From Lichenicoccus roseus (GTDB lineage Bacteria > Pseudomonadota > Alphaproteobacteria > Acetobacterales > Acetobacteraceae), in contig NZ_VCDI01000003.1 of the NCBI RefSeq assembly GCF_005844085.1, forward strand, positions 186,001 to 250,000: a stretch of DNA of 64,000 bases, in the 5' to 3' direction. Position numbers and translations under genes: made by a program. Positions 26,858-38,916 of this stretch are shown piece after piece (position 1 is the first letter of the stretch; each line of letters opens with the position of its first letter). Below the pieces are notes generated by a model that was not told the DNA's origin, searched no databases, and worked only from the letters and a program-made list of their open reading frames with translations.

Positions 26858-27196
26858 ATGAGCACTGGGCAGAACATGCAGGCATCACAGACGCCGATGA
26901 CATCCGGCGAAACCGGCAGTGGCGCGGTGCACCGGCTGCCCGTCTCGCTTGAACTGCCGGCGGCCGACGCGCTGCATGCCGAACTGCTCAGCAGGCTGCA
27001 GGCCGGGACCGACCTCGTCATCGATGGACAGGATGTCGAGGCGGTGTCCTCGGCCTGTCTTCAGGTTCTTGCGTCAGCATCCGCGAGTGCCGATGCGCGC
27101 GGCCAGGGCTTCCATCTGCAGACGATGTCGGGCGTGCTTGCTGAAGCAATTCGCAATCTCGGCCTTGCCGGGGCGCTCGGACTTGCGACCGCATGA
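26858..27196 (+). CDS. STAS-domain protein, first gene of the chemotaxis operon
   Basis: A 112-residue protein whose second part is a STAS fold: LPVSLELPAADALHAELLSR, TDLVIDGQDVEAVSSACLQV, then RGQGFHLQTMSGVLAEAIRN. The phospho-acceptor loop of anti-sigma antagonists (DSxGL) appears as VSSACL (S64, S65), so Ser is kept while the preceding Asp is lost. It overlaps cheY by 4 nt (ATGA). STAS genes often open chemotaxis operons of this kind. Partners could be the RsbW-like ATPase at 35452 or CheA. ATG 26876 is an alternative start. Confidence 0.8.
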   Translation: MSTGQNMQASQTPMTSGETGSGAVHRLPVSLELPAADALHAELLSRLQAGTDLVIDGQDVEAVSSACLQVLASASASADARGQGFHLQTMSGVLAEAIRNLGLAGALGLATA

Positions 27197-27561
27197 CCAC
27201 CAAGCGGGTGATGACGGTCGATGACAGCAAGACGATGCGCGACATGGTCGGGTTCACCCTGCGCAGCGCCGGCTTTACCGTGATTGCGGCAGAGGACGGC
27301 CGTCAGGCGCTGGGGCTGCTCGCCGGCAATCCAGTAGACGTCATCATCACCGATCTGAACATGCCGGTGATGGACGGGGTCGCGCTGATCCGAGCGCTGC
27401 GTGCGGACCCGAGATGGCGCGCCTTGCCGATCCTGATGCTGACCACCGAGAGTGATGCATCGAAGAAGTCCGAAGGACGCAGTGCCGGCGCTACCGGCTG
27501 GATCGTCAAGCCGTTCAGCCCCGACAAGTTGATCGACGTCGTCAACCGCGTCTGCGGCTAG
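27193..27561 (+). CDS. cheY: Chemotaxis response regulator CheY
   Basis: A 122-residue single-domain receiver. The acid pocket is VDDS (D10, D11), the phospho-acceptor is D54 in ITDLNMPVMDG, the conserved Thr is in LMLTTES and the Lys in WIVKPFSPDKL. It is phosphorylated by CheA and binds the flagellar switch or acts as a phosphate sink. It starts inside the STAS gene (4-nt overlap) and ends 4 nt before cheA, so the three are co-translated. Confidence 0.93.
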   Translation: MTTKRVMTVDDSKTMRDMVGFTLRSAGFTVIAAEDGRQALGLLAGNPVDVIITDLNMPVMDGVALIRALRADPRWRALPILMLTTESDASKKSEGRSAGATGWIVKPFSPDKLIDVVNRVCG

Positions 27562-27565
27562 TGCC

Positions 27566-29629
27566 ATGACCACTGGTCATTTCGATCACCTGAAGGCGAC
27601 CTATTTCCAGGAATGCGGAGAACTGCTCGACAGCGCCTACGCGAGCCTGACGGCGCTCGATGAGGGACGGCAGGATCAGGACACCATCCATGCAATCTTT
27701 CGCGCCTTCCATTCGATCAAGGGCGGGGGCGGCGCCTTCGGCTTCGACCGCATGGTCGCCTTCGCGCACGTGCTCGAGACGCTTCTCGACCTGGTACGCG
27801 ACGGCAGGATCGCCGCCGGCGCCCCGGTCATCGCCCTGCTGCTGCGCGCCACGGACGCGCTGAGCGACCTGGTCGCGGCGGAGCGCACCGCGATCCCGGC
27901 GCGCGAGGGCTTCGAGGACGCGCTTCTTGTCGAACTCGCCGCCTGCGCGTCGCCGGAACTGGCACAGGCGAACCCGATCGCACAGCCGCCGGCCCGGGAA
28001 GCGCCGCAGCATACGGAGGATGCTGTCCTGTACGAGATCCGCTTCACACCGCATGTCCTGCTCTATCGCAATGCGAACGAGCCACTGCTGCTGATACGCG
28101 CACTGAACCGCCTCGGCGAGACGACCTTGTGCGTCGATCTCTCCCGCCTGCCACCGCTCGAGCAGCTGGAGCCCGAGCATGCCTACATCGGCTGGACCAT
28201 GCGGCTCTCGACCTCGGCCGGACCGGCTCGTATCGAGGAGATCTTCGATTTCGTCTCCGACCAGTGCGATCTCGTGATCGAGCCGGTCGAGGCCGTGGAT
28301 CGCGGGCGCGGGACGCAATCCGCAGCCGTCGATACCGCGACCGCGCCGCCACCGCCGGCTCCCCGCCGTGGCGAGGCTCATGTTGCACCGACCACGGTCC
28401 GTGTCGACGTGCAGAAGGTCGATCGCCTGGTCAACCTGGTGGGCGAGCTGGTCATCAACCAGGCGATGCTGGTGCAGTTGGGCGCCCTGCTGCCACCCGA
28501 TCTGTGCCCGGAGCTGGTTGGCGGCCTGGCGACGCTGTCGCAGCATCTGAGGGAACTGCAGGAGGGTGTGATGGCGATACGCACCCAGCCGGTCGGCTCG
28601 GTGTTCTCGCGGATGCCGAGGCTGGTGCGCGAACTCTCAGCCCAGCTCGGCAAGGATGTCCATCTCGCGATCGCTGGCGAAGGCACCGAGATCGACAAGA
28701 CGGTGATCGAGCAGCTGGCAGATCCGCTTACTCATCTGCTCCGTAATGCGCTCGATCACGGCATCGAAACGCCGGAGCGGCGGATCGCCGCCGGCAAGCC
28801 CGCGCAGGGTACCGTGCGACTGACTGCCGAACATTGTAGCGGACGCATCGTGATCGAGGTCAGCGACGATGGTCGCGGTATCGACCGCGAGCGTGTCCTG
28901 GCGCGTGCGCGGCAACGCGGGCTGGTGCCGCAGGCCGCGACGCCGAGCGAGGAGGAGATCGACAACCTGATCTTCCTCCCGGGCTTCTCGACCGTCGAAG
29001 TGGTCTCGGACGTCTCCGGCCGCGGGGTCGGCATGGACGTGGTCCGCCGCAACATACAGGCGCTCGGCGGCCGCATTACCGTGCACTCGCAACTCGGCAC
29101 CGGATCACGCTTCGTGCTGTCGCTGCCGCTCACGCTCGCCATTCTCGACGGCATGATCGTGGCGGTCGGCCGTGAGCGCTACATCGTTCCGCTGACCAAC
29201 ATCATCGAGAGCCTGCGGCCGAAGAGCGTCGACATCCACCCCGTGGTCGGCTGCGGCGAGGTTGTCGCCATCCGCGGCGATTATGTCCCGCTGATCTATC
29301 TCTCGCGGCATTTCGACATCCCGGGAGCCGCCACGGATCCGTCCCGCGCCATGGTGGTCGTGGTCGAGAGCGAAAGCTCCGGCCAGGTCGGACTGGTAGT
29401 CGACGAGTTGCTCGGGCAGCAGCAGGTAGTGGTCAAGAGCCTCGAGGAAAATTACGGCGCAGTCGATGGGGTCGGTGGCGCCACCATCCTCGGCAACGGT
29501 CGCGTTGCCCTGATCCTCGACGTAGCCGGCCTGCGCGGTGGTCAGATGCCCGCAACCTCCGGCGCGGGTCGCTCCCCGAACCTTCCATCCGCCCCCGCGT
29601 CCCCGGCCGCGGTCTCCACCATCCACTGA
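27566..29629 (+). CDS. cheA: Chemotaxis histidine kinase CheA
   Basis: A 687-residue CheA with all core domains. The Hpt domain has phospho-acceptor H49 in FRAFHSIKGGGGAFGF. A linker/P2-like region spans about 150-260. The P3 dimerisation helix pair starts at VDVQKVDRLVNLVGELVINQ. The P4 ATPase contains LTHLLRNALDHGIETPERR, DDGRGIDRERV and DVSGRGVGMDVVRRNI. The P5 CheW-like domain begins at LAILDGMIVAVGRERYIVPL. The protein ends in a Pro/Ala/Ser tail. It phosphorylates CheY and CheB under receptor control. Confidence 0.95.
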   Translation: MTTGHFDHLKATYFQECGELLDSAYASLTALDEGRQDQDTIHAIFRAFHSIKGGGGAFGFDRMVAFAHVLETLLDLVRDGRIAAGAPVIALLLRATDALSDLVAAERTAIPAREGFEDALLVELAACASPELAQANPIAQPPAREAPQHTEDAVLYEIRFTPHVLLYRNANEPLLLIRALNRLGETTLCVDLSRLPPLEQLEPEHAYIGWTMRLSTSAGPARIEEIFDFVSDQCDLVIEPVEAVDRGRGTQSAAVDTATAPPPPAPRRGEAHVAPTTVRVDVQKVDRLVNLVGELVINQAMLVQLGALLPPDLCPELVGGLATLSQHLRELQEGVMAIRTQPVGSVFSRMPRLVRELSAQLGKDVHLAIAGEGTEIDKTVIEQLADPLTHLLRNALDHGIETPERRIAAGKPAQGTVRLTAEHCSGRIVIEVSDDGRGIDRERVLARARQRGLVPQAATPSEEEIDNLIFLPGFSTVEVVSDVSGRGVGMDVVRRNIQALGGRITVHSQLGTGSRFVLSLPLTLAILDGMIVAVGRERYIVPLTNIIESLRPKSVDIHPVVGCGEVVAIRGDYVPLIYLSRHFDIPGAATDPSRAMVVVVESESSGQVGLVVDELLGQQQVVVKSLEENYGAVDGVGGATILGNGRVALILDVAGLRGGQMPATSGAGRSPNLPSAPASPAAVSTIH

Positions 29630-29653: not shown

Positions 29654-30187
29654 ATGGACCGTCCGACGTCACGAACCGGCCATCGCGGGGCCTCGAACGC
29701 CCCGGAGGCCGCTGCCGGCAACAGCAGCCAGTTCATCACCTTCACGCTCGCCGAGCAGGAATATGGTGTCGACATCATGGCCATACGCGAGATCAAGGGG
29801 TGGATCGAGACGACCTCGATCCCGCACGCTCCCGATTTCATTCGAGGCGTCATAAACCTGCGTGGCATCATCGTTCCCATCATGGATCTGCGGGCGCGCT
29901 TCGGCATGGCGCTCACCGAGCCGACGGCGATGCACGTGGTCATCATCATCACGCTCGGCACGCGCACCACCGGCCTGCTGGTCGATGCGGTCTCGGACAT
30001 CATCACGGTGGCGCCTGCCTCCATCCGGGCAATACCGGAAATGGGGGCGGGCGAGCAGGAGAGCCTGCTGACAGGTCTGGTGGCACTCGACGACCGGATG
30101 GTGTCGCTGGTTTCTCTCGAACGGCTGATCGGAACCGGCGGTGCCGCCCCGCTCATCCACGACGGCATGCTTCTGGCCGCAGCGTAG
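29654..30187 (+). CDS. cheW: Chemotaxis coupling protein CheW
   Basis: A 177-residue CheW. The SH3-like double barrel begins at FITFTLAEQEYGVDIMAIRE and continues with FIRGVINLRGIIVPIMDLRA and RTTGLLVDAVSDIITV, ending in SLVSLERLIG. It links the receptor to CheA. The first ~30 residues are a variable Ser/Ala-rich leader. It lies 24 nt after cheA. Confidence 0.95.
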   Translation: MDRPTSRTGHRGASNAPEAAAGNSSQFITFTLAEQEYGVDIMAIREIKGWIETTSIPHAPDFIRGVINLRGIIVPIMDLRARFGMALTEPTAMHVVIIITLGTRTTGLLVDAVSDIITVAPASIRAIPEMGAGEQESLLTGLVALDDRMVSLVSLERLIGTGGAAPLIHDGMLLAAA

Positions 30188-30250: not shown

Positions 30251-32503
30251 ATGCTCAACGATAGCGCTCCCTCGTTCTTCAGCACCCTGATCGACCGGCG
30301 TGGCGGCCGTGAGCGCCGCGCGGCGGCGAGCGTAGAACTCAGCCGGCTGAACAGCCGGGAAGCAGCCCTCGAAGCGTTGCAGGCAAGCGTGATGCTGGTC
30401 AGCAACGACCTGGTGATAACCTACATGAACTCGGCCGCCACCGCCCTGATGCAGGCGGCGGAGCCCGAGATGCGCCGTGAGGTGCCGGGCTTCGATGCCA
30501 GGAAACTTATCGGCAGCAACGTCGACATCTTCCAGGGCAACCCATCCCTCCAGCGTCGGATGTCGGCGGTCCTGGAGGTGCCGGAAGAGGCGACCATCAA
30601 GCTCGGTACCCGTACCTTTGACGTGCGGGTGTCGTCGTTGAAGGAGAACGCGACCCGCATAGGCTTTTGCATCGAATGGTCGGATGCGGATGACCGTATC
30701 CGGTCCGTCGCCAATACCAGCCTGATCACGGCGCTCGGCCGCTCTCAGGCGGTGATCGAGTTTGCACTCGATGGCCGCGTGATCCACGCCAACGAGAATT
30801 TCCTCACGGCGATGGGCTATACGCTTGAGGAGGTTGTCGGTCAGCACCATAGCCTGTTCGTGGATGCTGCCTACCGGCAGAGCGCGCAATACAAGGCGTT
30901 CTGGGAGAAGCTTGGGCGCGGCGAGTACGATGCCGGCCAATACAAGCGCATTGCCAAGGGAGGCCGCGAGGTCTGGCTGCAGGCAAGCTACAATCCGGTC
31001 GTCGACGCACAGGGCAAGGCACTCAAGGTCGTCAAGTCGGCAACCGATATCACCGAGCAGAAGCTGCAGAATGCCGACTATACCGGCCAGCTTGCGGCCA
31101 TCGGCAAGGCCCAGGCGGTCATCGAGTTCTCGCTCGAAGGGCGGATCCTGACCGCGAACCCGAACTTCCTCAATGCCGTGGGCTACTCGATCGACGAGAT
31201 CCGTGGTCAGCATCACAGCCTGTTCGTCGATCCGGTCGACCGGCAGAGCGCCGACTACCGCATCTTCTGGGACAAGCTCGGGCGTGGCGATTACGATGCC
31301 GGCCAGTACAAGCGCATCGCCAAGGGCGGCGGCCACGTCTGGCTGCAGGCGAGCTATAATCCGATCATGGACATGAACGGAAAGCCGTTCAAGGTCGTGA
31401 AATACGCTACCGACATCACTGAGCAGGTGCGCGCCGCCGAGCTGCTTCGCCTGGCGGTGCAGCAGATCCAGGCCGTCGTCAGCAGCGCGCAGTCCAACGA
31501 CCTGAGCGAACGGGTGCCGCTCGAGGGCAAGGCTGGCGACATCCAGGGCCTGTGCGCCGGAGTGAACGGTCTCCTCGACATGATGGTCGGTGTCGTCTCC
31601 GGCATCGTGGAGGCGTCGAGCACGATTGCAACCGGCGCCCGTGAAATCTCCATGGGCAATACGGACCTCTCGCAGCGCACCGAGGAGCAGGCTTCCAGCC
31701 TGGAGCAGACCGCCGCCAGTCTCGAGGAACTCACCGCAACGGTCCGCCAGAACGCCGACAACGCCCAGCAGGCGAACAAGCTGGCTAATTCAGCATCCGA
31801 GACCGCGATCAAGGGCGGCATCGTCGTAGGCGATGTGGTTCGAACCATGGAGGGGATCAGCCAAGCGAGCCGGAAGATCACCGATATCATCGGCGTCATC
31901 GACGAGATCGCCTTCCAGACCAACATTCTCGCGCTGAATGCGGCAGTGGAAGCGGCCCGCGCCGGCGAGCAGGGCAGGGGCTTTGCCGTCGTCGCGGCCG
32001 AGGTGCGCAACCTCGCCCAGCGGAGCGCCAACGCAGCAAAGGAGATCAAGTCGCTGATCTCGGAGTCCGGGGGGAAGGTCGAGTCTGGCTCGCGGCTGGT
32101 CGCGGCGGCCGGCCAGACCATGGAGGAGATCGTCCATTCGGTGAAGCGGGTCACCGATATCATGGCCGAGATCTCCGCCGCATCGAAGGAGCAGAGCGGC
32201 GGCATCGAGCAGGTGAACACCGCGGTCATGCAGATGGACAAGATCACCCAGCAGAATGCGGCATTGGTCGAGCAGGCGGCGGCGGCGGCGAAGTCGATGG
32301 AGGACCAGACCGACGGCCTCGCCGCCATGGTCGCGGGTTTCACCCTCGGCGACGCGGTGCGGCCCGTGCCGGTCGCACAGCATGGCCCGGTAGCACGCAA
32401 GTCCGCTCCAGCCGCGCGCGTGGCGCCGGCCGCCATGCGCCGCCCGGTGCCGCAGGCCAGACAGCCTGAGCGCAGCGATGCAAACGACTGGAAGGAGTTC
32501 TGA
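30251..32503 (+). CDS. Soluble chemoreceptor with three PAS-type domains
   Basis: A 750-residue methyl-accepting protein without membrane segments. Residues ~40-150 form a PAS-like domain ([16 protein letters not shown] region). Two near-identical PAS domains follow, each with [27 protein letters not shown] or its variant, and SYNPV/I. Then come a HAMP-like stretch and the signalling hairpin [20 protein letters not shown] with [20 protein letters not shown]. It ends in DWKEF, a C-terminal pentapeptide like those that tether CheR/CheB. Cytoplasmic PAS receptors commonly sense redox or heme-bound gases, but no cofactor residue is certain here. ATG 30251 is the start. ATG 30215 is a weaker option. 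Confidence 0.92.
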
Positions 32504-32513
32504 GGGCCAATTC

Positions 32514-33362
32514 GTGGTGGCACCGGCAGCAGTGGCGATCCAGGACGATCTCATCGGCCGCGAGGACTTCGACGCGATCCGGGCGCTTATGCACCGCATC
32601 GCCGGCATCAAGCTGAGTGACAGCAAGCGGGACCTGGTCTCGGGCCGCCTGCGTCGACGACTGGGAGTTCTCGGCTTGGAGAACTTCTCGCAGTACCGTC
32701 TGCTGGTCGACAGCCCCGCCGGCGACGACGAGCGACTGCAGATGATCAATGCCCTGACGACCAACCTCACCAGCTTCTTCCGCGAGGCGCATCATTTCGT
32801 GGCGCTAGCGGAGCTGCTGGACCGGATGCTCGCGACGGCTGAACAGCGCAGGCTCAGGATCTGGTCGGCCGCGTGCTCGTCCGGGGAGGAGCCGTATTCG
32901 ATCGCGATGGTGGTTCATGGCGCCTTGCAGAAAGCCGGAGCCATGAAGCGCGGTTGGGACGCGCGTATCCTGGCGACCGACATCGACAGCAACATGGTCG
33001 ACCTCGCGGCTGCCGGCAGCTACCAGGCTGAGCGGGCAGATGCGATACCGCCGCAGTTCGAGAGGCTCGTAAGACGCCGCCTGGACGGGTTGGTCGAGAT
33101 GAAGCAGGCACTGCGCGACCTGATCGCGTTCAAGCGACTCAATCTTCAAGACAAGTGGCCGATGCAGGGCCGGTTCGACGTCATATTCTGCCGCAACGTG
33201 GTGATCTATTTCGACAAGCCGACGCAGCGCCAGCTGTTCGACCGGCTCGCCGACCTGCTTCAGCCGGATGGCTGGCTATTCATCGGTCATTCCGAAAGCC
33301 TGCTCGGCGTCAGCGACCGGTTCGAGAGCCAGGGCCGCACCATCTACCGCAAGATCCGCTGA
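32514..33362 (+). CDS. cheR: Chemoreceptor methyltransferase CheR
   Basis: The N-terminal helical domain (DFDAIRALMHRIAGIKLSDS then LVSGRLRRRL) is followed by a SAM-dependent methyltransferase. That domain has TNLTSFFREAHHF, RIWSAACSSGEEPYSIAMVV (SAM motif I), ATDIDSNMVDLA and FDVIFCRNVVIYFDKPTQ. It methylates receptor glutamates. I prefer GTG 32514, which has GAGGG seven bases upstream. ATG 32478 would overlap the receptor gene by 26 nt with a weaker ribosome site. The protein is 282 residues (294 with the upstream start). Confidence 0.93.
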   Translation: MVAPAAVAIQDDLIGREDFDAIRALMHRIAGIKLSDSKRDLVSGRLRRRLGVLGLENFSQYRLLVDSPAGDDERLQMINALTTNLTSFFREAHHFVALAELLDRMLATAEQRRLRIWSAACSSGEEPYSIAMVVHGALQKAGAMKRGWDARILATDIDSNMVDLAAAGSYQAERADAIPPQFERLVRRRLDGLVEMKQALRDLIAFKRLNLQDKWPMQGRFDVIFCRNVVIYFDKPTQRQLFDRLADLLQPDGWLFIGHSESLLGVSDRFESQGRTIYRKIR

Positions 33363-33378: not shown

Positions 33379-33921
33379 ATGAAGAAAATCAAGATCGGTC
33401 CCGGCGAACATTTTGTCACGCGCGACCCCAGCCACCTGATCATAACCGTGCTGGGATCCTGCATCGCCGCCTGCATCCGCGACCCGGTCGCCGGTGCCGG
33501 CGGCATGAACCACTTCATGCTGCCGCAGAGCGATACGGGCAACTGGGGCGATGCGAGCGAAAGCATGCGCTACGGCAATTTTGCCATGGAGCGGCTGATC
33601 AACGACATACTGCAGCTCGGCGGCGTGCGGCGCCGGCTCGAGGTCAAGCTGTTCGGCGGCGGACTGATGATGGCGGACCATGCGGCGATCGGATGCAAGA
33701 ATGCGGATTTTGCCGAAGCCTATCTGCGCGCGGAAAACATGAGTGTTGCCGCGTGCGATCTGCGTGGGTTGCATGCACGACGCGTCGAATACCTGCCACT
33801 GACCGGCAAGGTCATGATGCTGCAGATCGAGTCAGCGAACAGCAAGGTCGCCAGACTGGAGCAGGGCTTTGCCCGAAGCATCCGCAAAACGCCCACCGGT
33901 TCCATCGAGCTGTTCGACTGA
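33379..33921 (+). CDS. cheD: Chemoreceptor glutamine deamidase CheD
   Basis: A 180-residue CheD. The catalytic residues are visible: Cys in TVLGSCIAACIRDP, His in GGMNHFMLPQ, and the conserved glycine loop VKLFGGGLMM. It deamidates receptor glutamines so that they can be methylated, and in some species interacts with CheC or CheY. It starts 16 nt after cheR and ends one base before cheB, so the adaptation enzymes form one translational block. No cheC is present. Confidence 0.93.
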   Translation: MKKIKIGPGEHFVTRDPSHLIITVLGSCIAACIRDPVAGAGGMNHFMLPQSDTGNWGDASESMRYGNFAMERLINDILQLGGVRRRLEVKLFGGGLMMADHAAIGCKNADFAEAYLRAENMSVAACDLRGLHARRVEYLPLTGKVMMLQIESANSKVARLEQGFARSIRKTPTGSIELFD

Positions 33922-33922
33922 A

Positions 33923-34951
33923 ATGGCAATACGGGTCCTGATCGTCGACGATTCGGCACTGATGCGCCAGCTCATGACGGAGATGCTTGCAAGCGATCCC
34001 GGCATCGAGGTGGTCGGTACGGCGGGCGATCCCTATATCGCCCGGGAGAAGATCAAGCTACTCGCCCCTGACGTTCTTACCCTCGATATCGAGATGCCGA
34101 GAATGGACGGGCTCAGCTTCCTGGAGCGCCTGATGGCCTTGCGGCCGATGCCGGTCGTGGTGGTCTCCACGCTGACGCAGCGGGGTACCGACATCGCCCT
34201 GCACGCACTGGAACTCGGTGCGGTCGATGTCGTTGCCAAGCCGACGCTCGGGGTGCGCGATGGCCTGCTCCTGTTGCGCGAGGAGCTGCTGACCAAGGTG
34301 AAGGCGGCGGCGCAGGCCAGACCGCGGGCGCGAAGCGAGCCGGCGACAAGGCTCAGACCGCGGGTCGACCCGCTGCTATCCGCGGCCGGACGCATCGTCG
34401 CGGTGGGCGCATCGACAGGCGGCGTCGAGGCGTTGCAGCGACTGCTCGTCGACCTTCCCGCAGACTGCCCGGCGATCCTGATCGCACAGCACATGCCACC
34501 CGGCTTCACCGCATCGTTTGCAAAGCGGCTGGACCAGATCTGCATGATGTCGGTCTGCGAGGCGACGGACGGCCAGGTGGTGAACCCCGGGCACGTCTAT
34601 ATCGCCAACGGAGCGCGGCATCTCGAGCTGACCCGCAGCGGTTCGCGATATTCCTGCCGGCTGCACGACGGCGCTGCGGTGTCCGGACATCGTCCTTCGG
34701 TGGATGTCTTGTTCCGGTCATTCGCCGATACCATCGGGTCGAACGCCCTGGGGATCATCCTGACCGGCATGGGGCGGGACGGCGCGGCCGGGCTGCTTGC
34801 GATGCGCCAGGCAGGGGCGCACACGCTCGGACAGAGCGAGGCGAGCTGCCTGATCTACGGGATGCCGAAGGCCGCGAAGGATATCGGGGCGGTCGAGGCG
34901 GAGATGTCTCTCGAGCATCTCGTCGGCGCCATCGTCAGGCAGTCTCGATGA
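33923..34951 (+). CDS. cheB: Chemotaxis response regulator and methylesterase CheB
   Basis: A 342-residue CheB. The receiver has VDDSALMRQLM and phospho-acceptor D55 in TLDIEMPRMDGL, with Lys in VVAKPTLG. After a basic linker comes the methylesterase with its Ser-His-Asp set: GASTGGVEAL, IAQHMPPGFT and TGMGRDGAAGL. It removes methyl groups and deamidates receptors once phosphorylated by CheA. The start ATG 33923 is 1 nt after the cheD stop. Its last 17 nt overlap an opposite-strand frame. Confidence 0.95.
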   Translation: MAIRVLIVDDSALMRQLMTEMLASDPGIEVVGTAGDPYIAREKIKLLAPDVLTLDIEMPRMDGLSFLERLMALRPMPVVVVSTLTQRGTDIALHALELGAVDVVAKPTLGVRDGLLLLREELLTKVKAAAQARPRARSEPATRLRPRVDPLLSAAGRIVAVGASTGGVEALQRLLVDLPADCPAILIAQHMPPGFTASFAKRLDQICMMSVCEATDGQVVNPGHVYIANGARHLELTRSGSRYSCRLHDGAAVSGHRPSVDVLFRSFADTIGSNALGIILTGMGRDGAAGLLAMRQAGAHTLGQSEASCLIYGMPKAAKDIGAVEAEMSLEHLVGAIVRQSR

Positions 34952-35387: not shown

Positions 35388-35451
35388 CGCTGAGTCATGC
35401 GCCGTGGCCGGTTAACGGATCCTTAGCAAGGGCAGCCGTAGTCTGTTGAAG

Positions 35452-36102
35452 ATGACGATGTTGGTTGAACCTCTCGCCCTCGAGGGCGCCCAGGGCACGG
35501 TATCCCTCGCCGTGTGCATTCGGCGCGGTGTGTGGCTTGTCGAGACTGGCGGCCCGCCGCCGCTCCATCACGCACCTGCCGTGCTGCTGGACGGCTTCGA
35601 TGCTACCGAAAGTGCGGCGGTGTCGGTTACCACGGCGATCGCGCTGAAGGCGGATCTTGCGGCCAGCATCGCCGCCATGCTGAGCCGGGAAGGTGCAGCC
35701 ATCGCGCCGCTCGGCATACTCGCCCTACACGAGATCATCCTGAATGCTGCTCTGCACGGCAATCTCGGCATGACGTCCGGACGCCTGTCGAAATGGTCCG
35801 ACCTGGTTGCGCGCGAGGCATTGCTGGCGGACGCTCTCAGCCGCGTCGAGCTTGCCGCCCGCGTGGTGACGGTGGCGGTCGCATGGACGCCCGGGATCAG
35901 CGCCTGCGCGGCGGTGGCGGACGAGGGGGCGGGCTACCAGGTCGACGAAGCCGAACACGCATCGTCGCGTGGCAACCGGCGTGCCGCCGGGCGCGGCCTG
36001 ATGCTGGCCCACGCCGGGGCGGAAGTCGAGATCCTGCATGGCGGCTGCTGCACGCGGCTTGCGTTTCGCGTGACCGATCAGAGCTGTTCGACATCATGGT
36101 GA
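35452..36102 (+). CDS. RsbW-like anti-sigma factor kinase / GHKL ATPase
   Basis: A 216-residue protein with a GHKL ATPase fold in its C-terminal two thirds: N-box LALHEIILNAALHGNLG, G1-box AAVADEGAGYQVDEAEH, and G2-like RAAGRGLMLAHAGAEVEI. This is the RsbW/SpoIIAB type, which phosphorylates a STAS protein and holds a partner in check. The first ~75 residues are an extra domain I do not recognise. It overlaps the phosphatase gene by 7 nt. ATG 35458 or TTG 35446 are alternative starts. Confidence 0.8.
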   Translation: MTMLVEPLALEGAQGTVSLAVCIRRGVWLVETGGPPPLHHAPAVLLDGFDATESAAVSVTTAIALKADLAASIAAMLSREGAAIAPLGILALHEIILNAALHGNLGMTSGRLSKWSDLVAREALLADALSRVELAARVVTVAVAWTPGISACAAVADEGAGYQVDEAEHASSRGNRRAAGRGLMLAHAGAEVEILHGGCCTRLAFRVTDQSCSTSW

Positions 36103-37376
36103 GCGCTGCGCATGAGGCGCCGATCATCGTGCTTGACCCCGATGCAAAGGAGGGACGGCAGATCGCAGGTTGGTTGCGATCGGCCGGGCTGGACATGATC
36201 TGCACCGCGCGAACCTGTGACGAAGCGATCTTCATGCTCGGCAGGCGGCGCGCCGAGCTGCTGATCATCGGGGATGGCGTCTCTTCCATCGCCAGGCGGC
36301 GCCTGTTCGACCATGTCGCGGATTGCGGCCACGCGCTCGCGCCCAACGTCGTCTGGCTGCTGGAACCCGATAGCCGCGCGCAGAACGGACAGGATTTACG
36401 TCAGGCCCTTGGTCCCGCCGCGAACGCCTGCGACTTCGCGCCCACGCGCGACGCCGGCTCGTCGGTCATCGTCAGGCCACTCCTGGCGCAGGACGTCGTC
36501 ACTGAGGTCGGCAAGGCGATGCGGCGTCCGGACCTGCTGGGTCGCATGGATCGCGGCCGCGACAAGGCGGCGGAGCATCTGGCGGCGGCAAGACGAATGC
36601 AGCTTGGTCTGCTGCCGACAGCTGATCAACGGATCATGCTGCAAGCGGAATGCGGCATTGGCCTGGCCGACTTCTGCCAGACTGGCGATGCTGTCGGCGG
36701 TGATTTCTGGGGTGCCTGGCCCACCGGCCGCGGCCGGCTCGCACTTGCTCTGGCGGATTTCGCTGGACATGGATTGAGTGCTGCGCTGAACACCTTCAGG
36801 CTGCATGCCATCCTGTCCGAGCGCACCCTGCCGCGCGCGATGCCGGCTCGGATGACGGGCCTGCTGAACCAGCGGCTGCATGATCTGCTGCCAATCGGCC
36901 ATTACGCCACGATGATCTATGCCCAGCTCGACCCGGCCCGTCACAGGCTCGCCTGGTCCAGTTCCGGTGGCCCGCCTCCATTGTTCGTCGATGCGCACGG
37001 GGGCAGGACTCTCGAGGCGAGTGGCCTTCCACTCGGCGTGCGTGCCGGCGAGCGCTATAGCAGCAACTATGCGGATCTGCGCGGACCGGGCATCCTCTGT
37101 CTTTTTAGCGACGGGCTCTACGAAAGCGGCGCGGGCTCGGAGGATATCCCGACGGCGGCCATCGCGTCGGCCATGTCCGGAGCGGCCGCGATCGCCGCCG
37201 CCGGACGCCTCGAGGAGGCAGCCTCGAACGCCGTGCTCCAGCTCAATCTGTTGCGATCCCGGTATGGATGCCTCGACCATTCGGACGATGTCATGGCGGT
37301 CGCGGTGGCGCTCGGTCCTGCCTCCGGCGTCGAACCTCCCTCGAAGCAGGGGAATTTGTTAATGCCTGGGGGCTAG
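36096..37376 (+). CDS. PP2C/SpoIIE-type phosphatase with degenerate receiver domain
   Basis: A 426-residue RsbU-like protein. Residues ~8-130 resemble a receiver (APIIVLDPDAKEGRQIAGWL, LLIIGDG), but the conserved Lys is replaced in VIVRPLL, so phosphorylation is doubtful. A coiled linker (HLAAARRMQLGLLPTADQR) leads into the PP2C domain, where the metal-binding acids are kept: GDAVGGDFWG, ALADFAGHGLSAAL, LCLFSDGLYESG and DHSDDVMAVAVAL. It should dephosphorylate a phospho-STAS protein. It overlaps the RsbW-like gene, which makes a kinase/phosphatase pair. Confidence 0.87.
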   Translation: MVSAAHEAPIIVLDPDAKEGRQIAGWLRSAGLDMICTARTCDEAIFMLGRRRAELLIIGDGVSSIARRRLFDHVADCGHALAPNVVWLLEPDSRAQNGQDLRQALGPAANACDFAPTRDAGSSVIVRPLLAQDVVTEVGKAMRRPDLLGRMDRGRDKAAEHLAAARRMQLGLLPTADQRIMLQAECGIGLADFCQTGDAVGGDFWGAWPTGRGRLALALADFAGHGLSAALNTFRLHAILSERTLPRAMPARMTGLLNQRLHDLLPIGHYATMIYAQLDPARHRLAWSSSGGPPPLFVDAHGGRTLEASGLPLGVRAGERYSSNYADLRGPGILCLFSDGLYESGAGSEDIPTAAIASAMSGAAAIAAAGRLEEAASNAVLQLNLLRSRYGCLDHSDDVMAVAVALGPASGVEPPSKQGNLLMPGG

Positions 37377-37460
37377 CATCCGGGATGACGAGAGGCGTCT
37401 TCGTTCCCGAAGGTGATCAAGGCCGATCGTCGGCACATTCATAGGAAGGACGATCATCGT

Positions 37461-38558
37461 GTGGTTCCCGAGACGATCATGATCAGGACTGCGATCGATC
37501 GGGATGCGACGCCGGTTTCCGATGCGGCGGCCATGATGCTTCAGAAATGGCTCGAACTTTCCGAGGTGGAGCGCCGCACCTTCGTCGCGCTGTCACGCGA
37601 GCTGATCCGGTCGTCCGATCTCGTCGAGGTCAGCACGCTCGACCTCAGCGAGCGATTCCAGGATCTGGCCGCCATCGCGCGAGGCCAGGTCGGACAGGTC
37701 GACAAGATCATCGGGCTTGCCAAGTCGATCGAGGTCGATGGCGAGGCGGTGCCCATCGAGGATGCCATGCATCAGGTCGAGCAGGTGCTGGTAAAGGTAA
37801 TCGGCGCCATCCTGGCGGTGTCCAAGCATGCCATGCGCATGGTGTACGCGCTCGATCAGGTCGCCGGCGACATCGAGGGCTCCGAGCAGTGTGTCAGGCA
37901 GATCGACGCGATCAACGCGAAGACGCGCTACCTGGCGCTGAACGCTGCCATCGAGGCGAGCCGCGCCGGGGGTGCCGGCGGGACTTTCGGGGTGATCGCG
38001 CGGGAGATGAAGGACCTGTCGCAGGAGATCGCGACCATGTCGGGCGCGGTGAACGGCCGCATTTCGGCGATCCGCATCGGCATGCAGGAAAGCCATAGCG
38101 TGCTCCGGGAGATTGCGACCCTCGACCTGTCCGAGCACATCATGGCGAAACAGCAGATCGACTATCTGCTTGTCGGCATCATGGCGCAGAACGACGCATT
38201 CAAGGCGGCACTCGCCGATACCGCCCAGACCTCCGGCGACCTGACCAAGACCATCGGCCAGCTGATCACCGGCATGCAGTTCCAGGATCGCACCAAGCAG
38301 CATCTTGCCCAGGTGGTGGATGTGCTCGGCGTCCTGCAGGCGAACACGCTGGCCCTGCAGGAGGCGACCATAACGGCGGTCCCCCGTCTCGCCGGCGCCA
38401 GCGGTGTCGGCCACGACTGGGTCGAGCGGATCGTCGGCAAGCAGACCCTCGGCGCGGCCAAGCACCGCATGCTGACCCAGCTGCTGTCGGACCGGGACAC
38501 CGAAGTGGACATCGCAGCCGAGGCGCCGGCGGAGGCGTCCGAGATCGAGCTGTTCTGA
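37461..38558 (+). CDS. Soluble MCP-like protein with CheZ-like motif
   Basis: A 365-residue all-helical protein without membrane segments or PAS domain. The middle has an abbreviated chemoreceptor hairpin tip: DAINAKTRYLALNAAIEASR then GTFGVIAREMKDLSQEIAT. Further on, MQFQDRTKQHLAQVVDVL (D276, Q280) has the Asp-x3-Gln spacing of the catalytic residues of the CheY phosphatase CheZ. It may thus be a cytoplasmic signalling scaffold, a CheY-P phosphatase, or both. GTG 37461 with AGGAAGG upstream is my start. GTG 37413 and ATG 37479 are alternatives. It lies between the phosphatase and the second STAS gene. Confidence 0.72.
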   Translation: MVPETIMIRTAIDRDATPVSDAAAMMLQKWLELSEVERRTFVALSRELIRSSDLVEVSTLDLSERFQDLAAIARGQVGQVDKIIGLAKSIEVDGEAVPIEDAMHQVEQVLVKVIGAILAVSKHAMRMVYALDQVAGDIEGSEQCVRQIDAINAKTRYLALNAAIEASRAGGAGGTFGVIAREMKDLSQEIATMSGAVNGRISAIRIGMQESHSVLREIATLDLSEHIMAKQQIDYLLVGIMAQNDAFKAALADTAQTSGDLTKTIGQLITGMQFQDRTKQHLAQVVDVLGVLQANTLALQEATITAVPRLAGASGVGHDWVERIVGKQTLGAAKHRMLTQLLSDRDTEVDIAAEAPAEASEIELF

Positions 38559-38610: not shown

Positions 38611-38916
38611 ATGAAGTTTACCCAGCAGAACACCCCGGAGGGCGCCGTCATGACGCTGGACGGCTCCTTCACCTTCAATGACTTCCGGGAGTTCGGAACG
38701 ATGCTGGAGGCGCTACGGGCGCGACCCTCCTGCCGCCACACGCTGGATCTGAGCCGTCTGGAATTCCTCGATTCCGCTGCACTCGGCATGCTGCTGATTG
38801 CCGAGGATGAACTGCGCAGCTCCGGCTCGTCGCTGACCTTGCGCAAGCCGCTCGGCTCGATCGCGCGGCTGCTGGAGATGTCGGCGATGCACAAGGTGTT
38901 CAGGATCGAGCATTGA
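38611..38916 (+). CDS. STAS-domain anti-sigma factor antagonist
   Basis: A 101-residue single STAS domain: AVMTLDGSFTFNDFREFGTM, CRHTLDLSRLEFLDSAALG and LLIAEDELRSSGSSLTLRKP. The phospho-acceptor motif is DSAALG (D54, S55), where RsbV has DSTGLG, so phosphorylation by the RsbW-like ATPase at 35452 and reversal by the PP2C at 36096 are plausible. It is the last gene of the block, 52 nt after the MCP-like gene. I see no sigma factor nearby that would be the target. Confidence 0.87.
   Translation: MKFTQQNTPEGAVMTLDGSFTFNDFREFGTMLEALRARPSCRHTLDLSRLEFLDSAALGMLLIAEDELRSSGSSLTLRKPLGSIARLLEMSAMHKVFRIEH

Follow-up and report, generated by a model that had tools for sequence, protein, structure and literature searches.

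A CheZ-type Asp/Gln site in an McpA-like chemoreceptor protein of an F7-type gene cluster: a candidate CheY-P phosphatase

In the CheZ phosphatase, the glutamine of the catalytic pair positions the attacking water molecule and the aspartate contacts the active site of CheY. CheC, CheX and FliY are CheY-P phosphatases of systems without CheZ; their fold and motif are unrelated to the CheZ-type site. The passages of PMC7750401 considered here describe DXXXQ as the phosphatase motif of CheZ, with a conserved AXXF(Y)Q sequence adjacent to it. In rhizobial F7 clusters that lack CheZ, CheT is a DXXXQ CheY phosphatase with a CheZ-like predicted structure that binds CheR (PMC12654446 and PMC8429497, in the parts covered). 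McpA-like receptors such as PA0180 and VCA1088 are, in the portion of PMC7184735 covered, an uncategorised class that is associated with the F6 array, is conserved and co-evolves with F7 systems, and is dispensable for the F7 array. According to the same text their function is unclear, as is the role of their highly conserved C-terminus; position 2 of the pentapeptide in PA0180 is a valine, not an aromatic residue; and F7 stages 1 and 2 have cheY, with cheZ being confined to F6. VCA1088 has been grouped with VC1394 of F9, no function being known (PMC7534058, in part). A Shewanella McpA-like homologue was found with CheA3, that is, with F6; receptors of this type are co-purified with CheA3 and share the localisation of F6 arrays, and overproduction of McpA alters swimming, as does that of three other MCPs (PMC9855816, in part). 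The passages on McpA-like receptors covered from PMC7184735, PMC7534058 and PMC9855816 make no mention of a CheZ-like site, and no link between these receptors and CheZ was found in open-licence PMC, the supplement of PMC7184735 dealing with the McpA C-terminus lying outside that coverage.

The present analysis concerns a stretch of 64,000 nucleotides of Lichenicoccus roseus (the window; positions are counted from its first letter), which contains a chemotaxis gene cluster. The features referred to below are as follows.

26858..27196, plus strand: STAS protein in a CheS-like position (PF13466)
27193..27561, plus strand: CheY, the presumed substrate (PF00072)
27566..29629, plus strand: CheA (Hpt, H-kinase_dim, HATPase and CheW domains)
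29654..30187, plus strand: CheW (PF01584)
30251..32503, plus strand: PAS-PAS MCP ending in DWKEF (aromatic pentapeptide), in an aer2-like position
32478..33362, plus strand: CheR (PF01739)
33379..33921, plus strand: CheD (PF03975), ending in GSIELFD, the tail type of the McpA-like protein
33923..34951, plus strand: CheB (PF01339 and PF00072)
35446..36102, plus strand: RsbW-like ATPase, a weak assignment (22.1 bits against a cut-off of 27.4)
36087..37376, plus strand: SpoIIE/RsbU-type serine phosphatase (PF07228), with no REC domain recognised by Pfam
37413..38558, plus strand: McpA-like protein with a soluble MCP hairpin and a CheZ-type D-x3-Q site, start uncertain (37413, 37461 or 37479); from the ORF, Pfam and alignment A3
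37515..37724, plus strand: N-terminal long helix, residues 13-82, common to hairpin-less relatives; from the AlphaFold2 model and profile comparison
37818..38123, plus strand: MCP signalling hairpin, residues 114-215 counted from ATG 37479; from the AlphaFold2 model and structure fit
38277..38300, plus strand: QFQDRTKQ motif, with the D codon at 38286-38288 and the Q codon at 38298-38300; Q, F, D and Q invariant in A3, A4 and the 93-sequence set
38541..38555, plus strand: C-terminal docking-like tail EIELF, predicted disordered; from A4 and AlphaFold2, the same tail type being found on CheD
38611..38916, plus strand: second STAS protein (PF13466)

The genes are thus ordered STAS-cheY-cheA-cheW-mcp(DWKEF)-cheR-cheD-cheB-RsbW-SpoIIE-McpA-like gene-STAS. 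The order published for F7 stage 1 (Ortega et al. 2020, PMC7184735, in the part covered) is STAS, cheY, cheA, two cheW, an aer2-like receptor, cheR, cheD, cheB, an mcpA-like receptor, STAS and a serine phosphatase. The cluster resembles this order but has one cheW instead of two, and its RsbW and SpoIIE genes precede the McpA-like gene, unlike the phosphatase of the published arrangement. The resemblance suggests that the window protein corresponds to the published mcpA-like receptor of an F7-type system, a class assignment made by gene order only. Compared by description, the F7 receptors PA0180/CttP, VCA1088 and SO_2117 and the F9 receptor VC1394 share the gene order and the MCP hairpin. The EIELF tail of the window protein is likewise conserved, non-aromatic at pentapeptide position 2 and not a CheR-type pentapeptide. 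The published receptors, in the passages covered, have a transmembrane region; none is apparent in the window member, inspection by eye revealing no hydrophobic N-terminal stretch. The cluster was correctly predicted to be devoid of cheZ, cheC and cheX: the genome has two cheZ genes, both on other contigs, and a genome search found neither CheC nor CheX. As a separate observation, a partner-switch module (RsbW-like, SpoIIE and STAS; 35446-37376 and 38611-38916) lies inside the che cluster, like crsR/crsA in Shewanella che1.

The reading frame of the McpA-like gene is open from 37389 and closes with a stop codon at 38556-38558. Candidate starts are GTG 37413, GTG 37461 (used in the original prediction) and ATG 37479. 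The Asp/Gln pair is accordingly numbered D292/Q296, D276/Q280 or D270/Q274. The D-x3-Q pair that had been proposed at D276/Q280 is indeed encoded there, by the codons at 38286 and 38298 within QFQDRTKQ, 118 residues past the MCP hairpin. The accompanying claim of a short chemoreceptor hairpin in the same protein was also borne out: MCPsignal, with 56.3 bits (cut-off 34.6), was the only Pfam domain to exceed its threshold. AlphaFold2 modelled the protein as a long antiparallel helical rod resembling an MCP (mean pLDDT 77, pTM 0.43). Residues 114-215, counted from ATG 37479, superposed, over 102 residues and at 1.1 A, on residues 340-441 of an E. coli receptor tip (6s1k_E). By the same offset, D270 and Q274 fall near positions 496 and 500 of the E. 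coli receptor, which we take to be in the region methylated in ordinary receptors. In the model the two residues of the pair are one helical turn apart on the C-terminal helix, the tip of the rod being about 105 residues away. The final 21 residues, finishing in EIELF, were modelled with low confidence, as is usual for disordered ends. Foldseek and VIA structure searches returned chemoreceptors first and generic coiled coils after. CheZ was not among the best 50 rows listed by either program, which is uninformative either way.

Conservation of the motif was assessed with a series of alignments. An alignment of the window protein with three relatives (A2) was scanned against 84,980 genomes and found at least 80 loci, and among the 80 loci listed most matches were ordinary MCPs. 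ORFs ending in the tail formed a separate group, in nearly all of which the motif lies 118 residues after the hairpin start. The family is widespread in bacteria, its records including Rhodopseudomonas, Methylococcaceae, Ectothiorhodospiraceae, Vibrio, Stenotrophomonas, Salinimonas, Alteromonas, Pseudomonas, Limnobacter and Zoogloea. All family counts given here are raw tallies that ignore kinship among genomes. In alignment A3 (24 rows) the Q, F, D and Q of the motif were invariant, as were hairpin residues. In A4 (23 rows covering the C-terminal region, 13-34% identical to the window protein) only these four residues and the final F were invariant. The same five columns were the most informative, each at 100%, among 93 distinct family sequences (about 68 effective) covering a C-terminal region of roughly 150 residues, from which CheZ rows and one degenerate second domain had been removed beforehand. 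The residue following the F varied (Q, E, G, A, H, Y, D or T) while D and Q did not; the replacement of QFQD by QFAD or QFGD in four relatives (L018, L019, L022 and L028) indicates that D and Q are kept independently of their neighbour.

F-x-D-x3-Q was present in 64 of 65 hairpin-bearing family ORFs, at a single fixed offset in 62; the 65th is a double-domain protein that has the motif in its first domain. As a control, only 1 of 123 distinct other hairpin ORFs from the same loci contained F-x-D-x3-Q, and none had the family tail. At E<=0.001 the A4 profile had matches in 178 of the 398 Pseudomonadota genomes, some weaker matches being helical proteins of other kinds. QF-x-D-x3-Q occurred in 100 of 103 non-CheZ matching stretches (a set of loci that includes overlapping copies), and the three without it all come from the second domain of a single protein (G045), which was seen in three loci. 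Since A4 itself includes the motif, its eight motif columns were masked to give A6, which was searched against 385 alphaproteobacterial genomes. Among the 32 matches listed, 23 reached E<=1.4e-8 and corresponded to 22 proteins from 20 genomes, two of them being themselves rows of the profile. All 22 proteins had Q-[FY]-x-D-x3-Q and all 22 ended in [IV]-x-[LM]-F; the G045 second domain, also among the strong matches, lacked the motif. Of the nine weaker matches, five were re-examined: the pair was present in one (L237, QIGDITRQ) and absent from four. Three others (L234, L238 and L240) were not re-found at the threshold used and one was without a locus. As the motif was kept in 22 of 22 proteins found by a profile from which it had been masked, and in 64 of 65 family ORFs against 1 of 123 controls, its occurrence by chance was ruled out.

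The motif domain also exists without the receptor part. Ten loci encode ORFs of 152-212 residues with QF-x-D-x3-Q and the tail but no match to the MCP hairpin. Seven of the ten were scanned and gave no Pfam or NCBIfam family above its curated cut-off, and the model of one hairpin-less relative had no structural match at E<=0.001. The N-terminal helix is present in these relatives, less clearly in L159, L160 and L164. Comparing this helix of eight relatives with that of the hairpin form by hhalign gave a score of 39.2; 100 column shuffles reached no more than 13.8, and 100 heptad-preserving shuffles no more than 11.0. The simplest reading of these comparisons is that the McpA-like form may be a helical-hairpin module with a chemoreceptor hairpin inserted at its tip. 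In 8 of the 10 loci cheY directly adjoins the hairpin-less gene; the others are L159 and L160. These two encode proteins of 190-201 residues with QFYD..Q and DDIELF, and have no che cluster within about 8 kb on each side.

Both CheZ (PF04344, NF041271) and the window protein have an antiparallel helical hairpin whose C-terminal helix bears F-x-D-x3-Q, that is, the catalytic D-x3-Q with an F at D-2; a linker and then a conserved C-terminal peptide come next. The family retains the F of AXXF(Y)Q; three columns before it, Ala stands in 33% of the 93 sequences and a larger hydrophobic residue in none. The window protein differs from CheZ in having an MCP hairpin and in lacking the C-terminal CheY-binding helix (..LLxSLGF), its own tail being EIELF where that of CheZ, in the loci examined, is ..LLSSLGF. 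A check with CheZ and MCP profiles had been suggested along with the prediction, and it divided: the MCP cut-off was passed while all CheZ cut-offs were missed. Pfam gave no match to CheZ (PF04344) at E<=1, and NCBIfam CheZ (NF041271) scored 13.2 bits against a cut-off of 350, at residues 280-332. Membership of the CheZ family was thus rejected. A scan of the protein's own genome with A4 retrieved the McpA-like protein (1e-31), the two cheZ genes weakly (E 0.013 and 0.019) and nothing else to E 0.1. In a local A4 search, 11 CheZ ORFs appeared at E 1e-4 to 1e-3 with D aligned on D and Q on Q. An hhalign comparison of the family with 30 CheZ sequences gave P 3.3e-5 over 63 columns, both residues of the pair again being matched to their CheZ counterparts; masking the eight motif columns left the diagonal unchanged and raised P to 0.12. 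Designed coiled coils in the PDB reached E 3e-4 with A4 and are false matches of coiled-coil profiles. Because significance is lost upon masking and designed coiled coils score similarly, we do not claim homology to CheZ; as judged from these alignments, the CheZ likeness of the family is one of the motif.

As a functional precedent, rhizobial CheT comes closest. In the descriptions covered, CheT of Sinorhizobium and Agrobacterium is similar in its DXXXQ motif and its location in an F7 cluster without CheZ. It differs from the window protein in its small size, 124 residues, and in having no hairpin. In S. meliloti (CP090106.1, L273:3558-3932) an ORF following cheD, annotated as hypothetical, is presumably CheT by its position. 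Its end, GDFEAF, resembles GDVELF and also fits the aromatic CheR pentapeptide pattern. This positional CheT gave no significant HMM or hhalign match to the family beyond the tail region, where the last 32 residues aligned tail to tail (P 0.007). Viral contigs searched with CheT yielded no relative.

The tail is not confined to the family. An x-[IV]-x-[LF]-F end was found on 29 of 38 CheD ORFs in family loci, some of the misses being cut by locus ends. Among alphaproteobacterial CheD proteins it was present in 18 of 20 from family-bearing genomes and in 10 of 10 from genomes without the family (28 of 30 overall), G428 being counted as family-bearing on the basis of a local A4 search. The results with family-free genomes disqualify the tail as a family-specific mark. 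In the 385-genome sample, CheD itself was found in 20 of 20 family-bearing genomes and in 20 of 365 others. Since it also closes CheD, the tail is putatively a shared docking peptide of CheD-type systems. Its interpretation as a CheR pentapeptide is weakened by the published lack of McpA binding to any CheR (PMC7184735, in the part covered).

Taken together, the invariance and spacing of the pair, the position in che clusters, often beside cheY, the lack of cheZ in these clusters and the existence of hairpin-less versions make phosphatase activity the most likely function, and the CheT precedent supports this reading. The McpA-like protein is therefore probably a CheZ-like CheY-P phosphatase of its own F7-type system. 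A chemoreceptor-type antiparallel helical rod, presumably a dimer, would present Asp and Gln on its C-terminal helix, where ordinary receptors have methylation sites. If CheZ is a guide, the pair would reach into phosphorylated CheY, with Gln orienting a water molecule and Asp contacting the active site. The C-terminus, disordered and ending in an invariant F, might dock a partner, possibly CheY, CheR or another array protein, such docking keeping enzyme and substrate together, and the MCP hairpin could couple the activity to receptor arrays. The original prediction offered two roles, the CheY-P phosphatase or a signal terminator built into a receptor-like scaffold. The terminator appears the best reading, the hairpin-less versions having kept the motif domain and the tail; a phosphatase for the whole cell it would not be, for the two cheZ genes elsewhere make the protein a candidate for this system only. 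Wide occurrence of the motif in MCP-like proteins of species with a full CheZ had been named beforehand as an argument against the idea and, taken literally, this is what was found, many genomes having both. We do not count it as such because PMC7184735, in the portion covered, assigns that cheZ to a separate F6 system. In 40 hand-picked family-bearing genomes CheZ exceeded its cut-off in none and CheX was found in 33. Thus CheX usually remains where CheZ is missing in this set, and a role as sole phosphatase of CheZ-less cells was discarded.

Several observations do speak against a phosphatase: many family genomes also have CheZ or CheX, the G045 second domain has lost the D/Q pair, and McpA-like receptors have been placed in the F6 array with CheA3, which fits an ordinary receptor or cross-talk (PMC9855816 and PMC7184735, in part). 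The clear MCPsignal match, the CheA3 co-purification and F6 localisation, and the effect of McpA overproduction on swimming, shared though it is with three other MCPs (PMC9855816, in part), would also suit an ordinary sensory or array-linking chemoreceptor whose conserved site is a non-catalytic binding site for CheY or another partner, used in localisation or sequestration. We consider this unlikely, as an invariant CheZ-spaced pair, kept even without the hairpin and found in 1 of 123 ordinary MCPs, exceeds what docking needs. The site might instead act on a receiver other than CheY in the same cluster, either that of CheB or, where the SpoIIE phosphatase has one, the receiver of that protein; CheB is part of stage-1 clusters, and a REC-SpoIIE protein is often encoded beside the McpA-like gene (PMC9855816 on CrsR, in part). 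By Pfam, the SpoIIE protein of the window has no recognisable receiver, and most stage-2-like and hairpin-less loci keep a cheY neighbour with no SpoIIE gene adjoining, which leaves little probability for a substrate other than CheY. That the pair is a structural feature of the helical rod, coincidentally matching CheZ, would agree with the insignificant likeness outside the motif and the spurious matching of coiled coils; it is highly improbable for two polar residues that all 93 sequences share (identity to the window protein in the alignments being 13-37%), across differing architectures and together with the same tail.

A CheY-P phosphatase would answer two questions together, the unclear role of McpA-like receptors and the presence of CheY without CheZ in F7 stages 1-2 (PMC7184735, in part). 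If true, the off-switch is carried by a receptor scaffold, and none of the literature passages covered describes such a wiring; a further CheY phosphatase family would then extend across alpha-, beta- and gammaproteobacteria. The McpA-like protein may in that case supply the signal termination that seemed to be missing from several signalling systems. A fuller version is possible although on balance doubtful: McpA-like proteins would be array-embedded CheY-P phosphatases, CheZ-like helical hairpins with a receptor hairpin in the tip and an activity positioned or gated by the array, would be the missing terminators of F7 and F9 systems, and would compete with CheD for one docking site through the common C-terminal peptide.

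Other architectures and variants were seen along with the family. One protein of 705 residues (L096:9071-11188) consists of two McpA-like units, the second of which has kept the tail and has no D/Q pair (DFYRGNTE). A motif-less relative of 329 residues lies at L012. Helical proteins of about 600-670 residues with no obvious MCP hairpin (L199, L200 and L202) have MQYDDI[ST][SA]QRI and an ..IELF end, a further architecture. Alphaproteobacterial helical proteins of about 580-630 residues (L203-L207) contain LQ[IV]GDITRQR[IL]EH and may be further D-x3-Q regulators; most carry a YTMxxER-type segment near the C-terminus and end in ..LF or ..FL. A segment of the form Y-[TVA]-[MT]-x-x-[EQ]-[RQH] recurs 15-40 residues upstream of the tail in several family members (for example L026, L068 and L164). 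Finally, on plasmid pMOC3 of Methylobacterium oryzae an McpA-like gene (L275:2785-4026; AMQFQDRAKQ ... GIDLF) adjoins divergent STAS and response-regulator genes.
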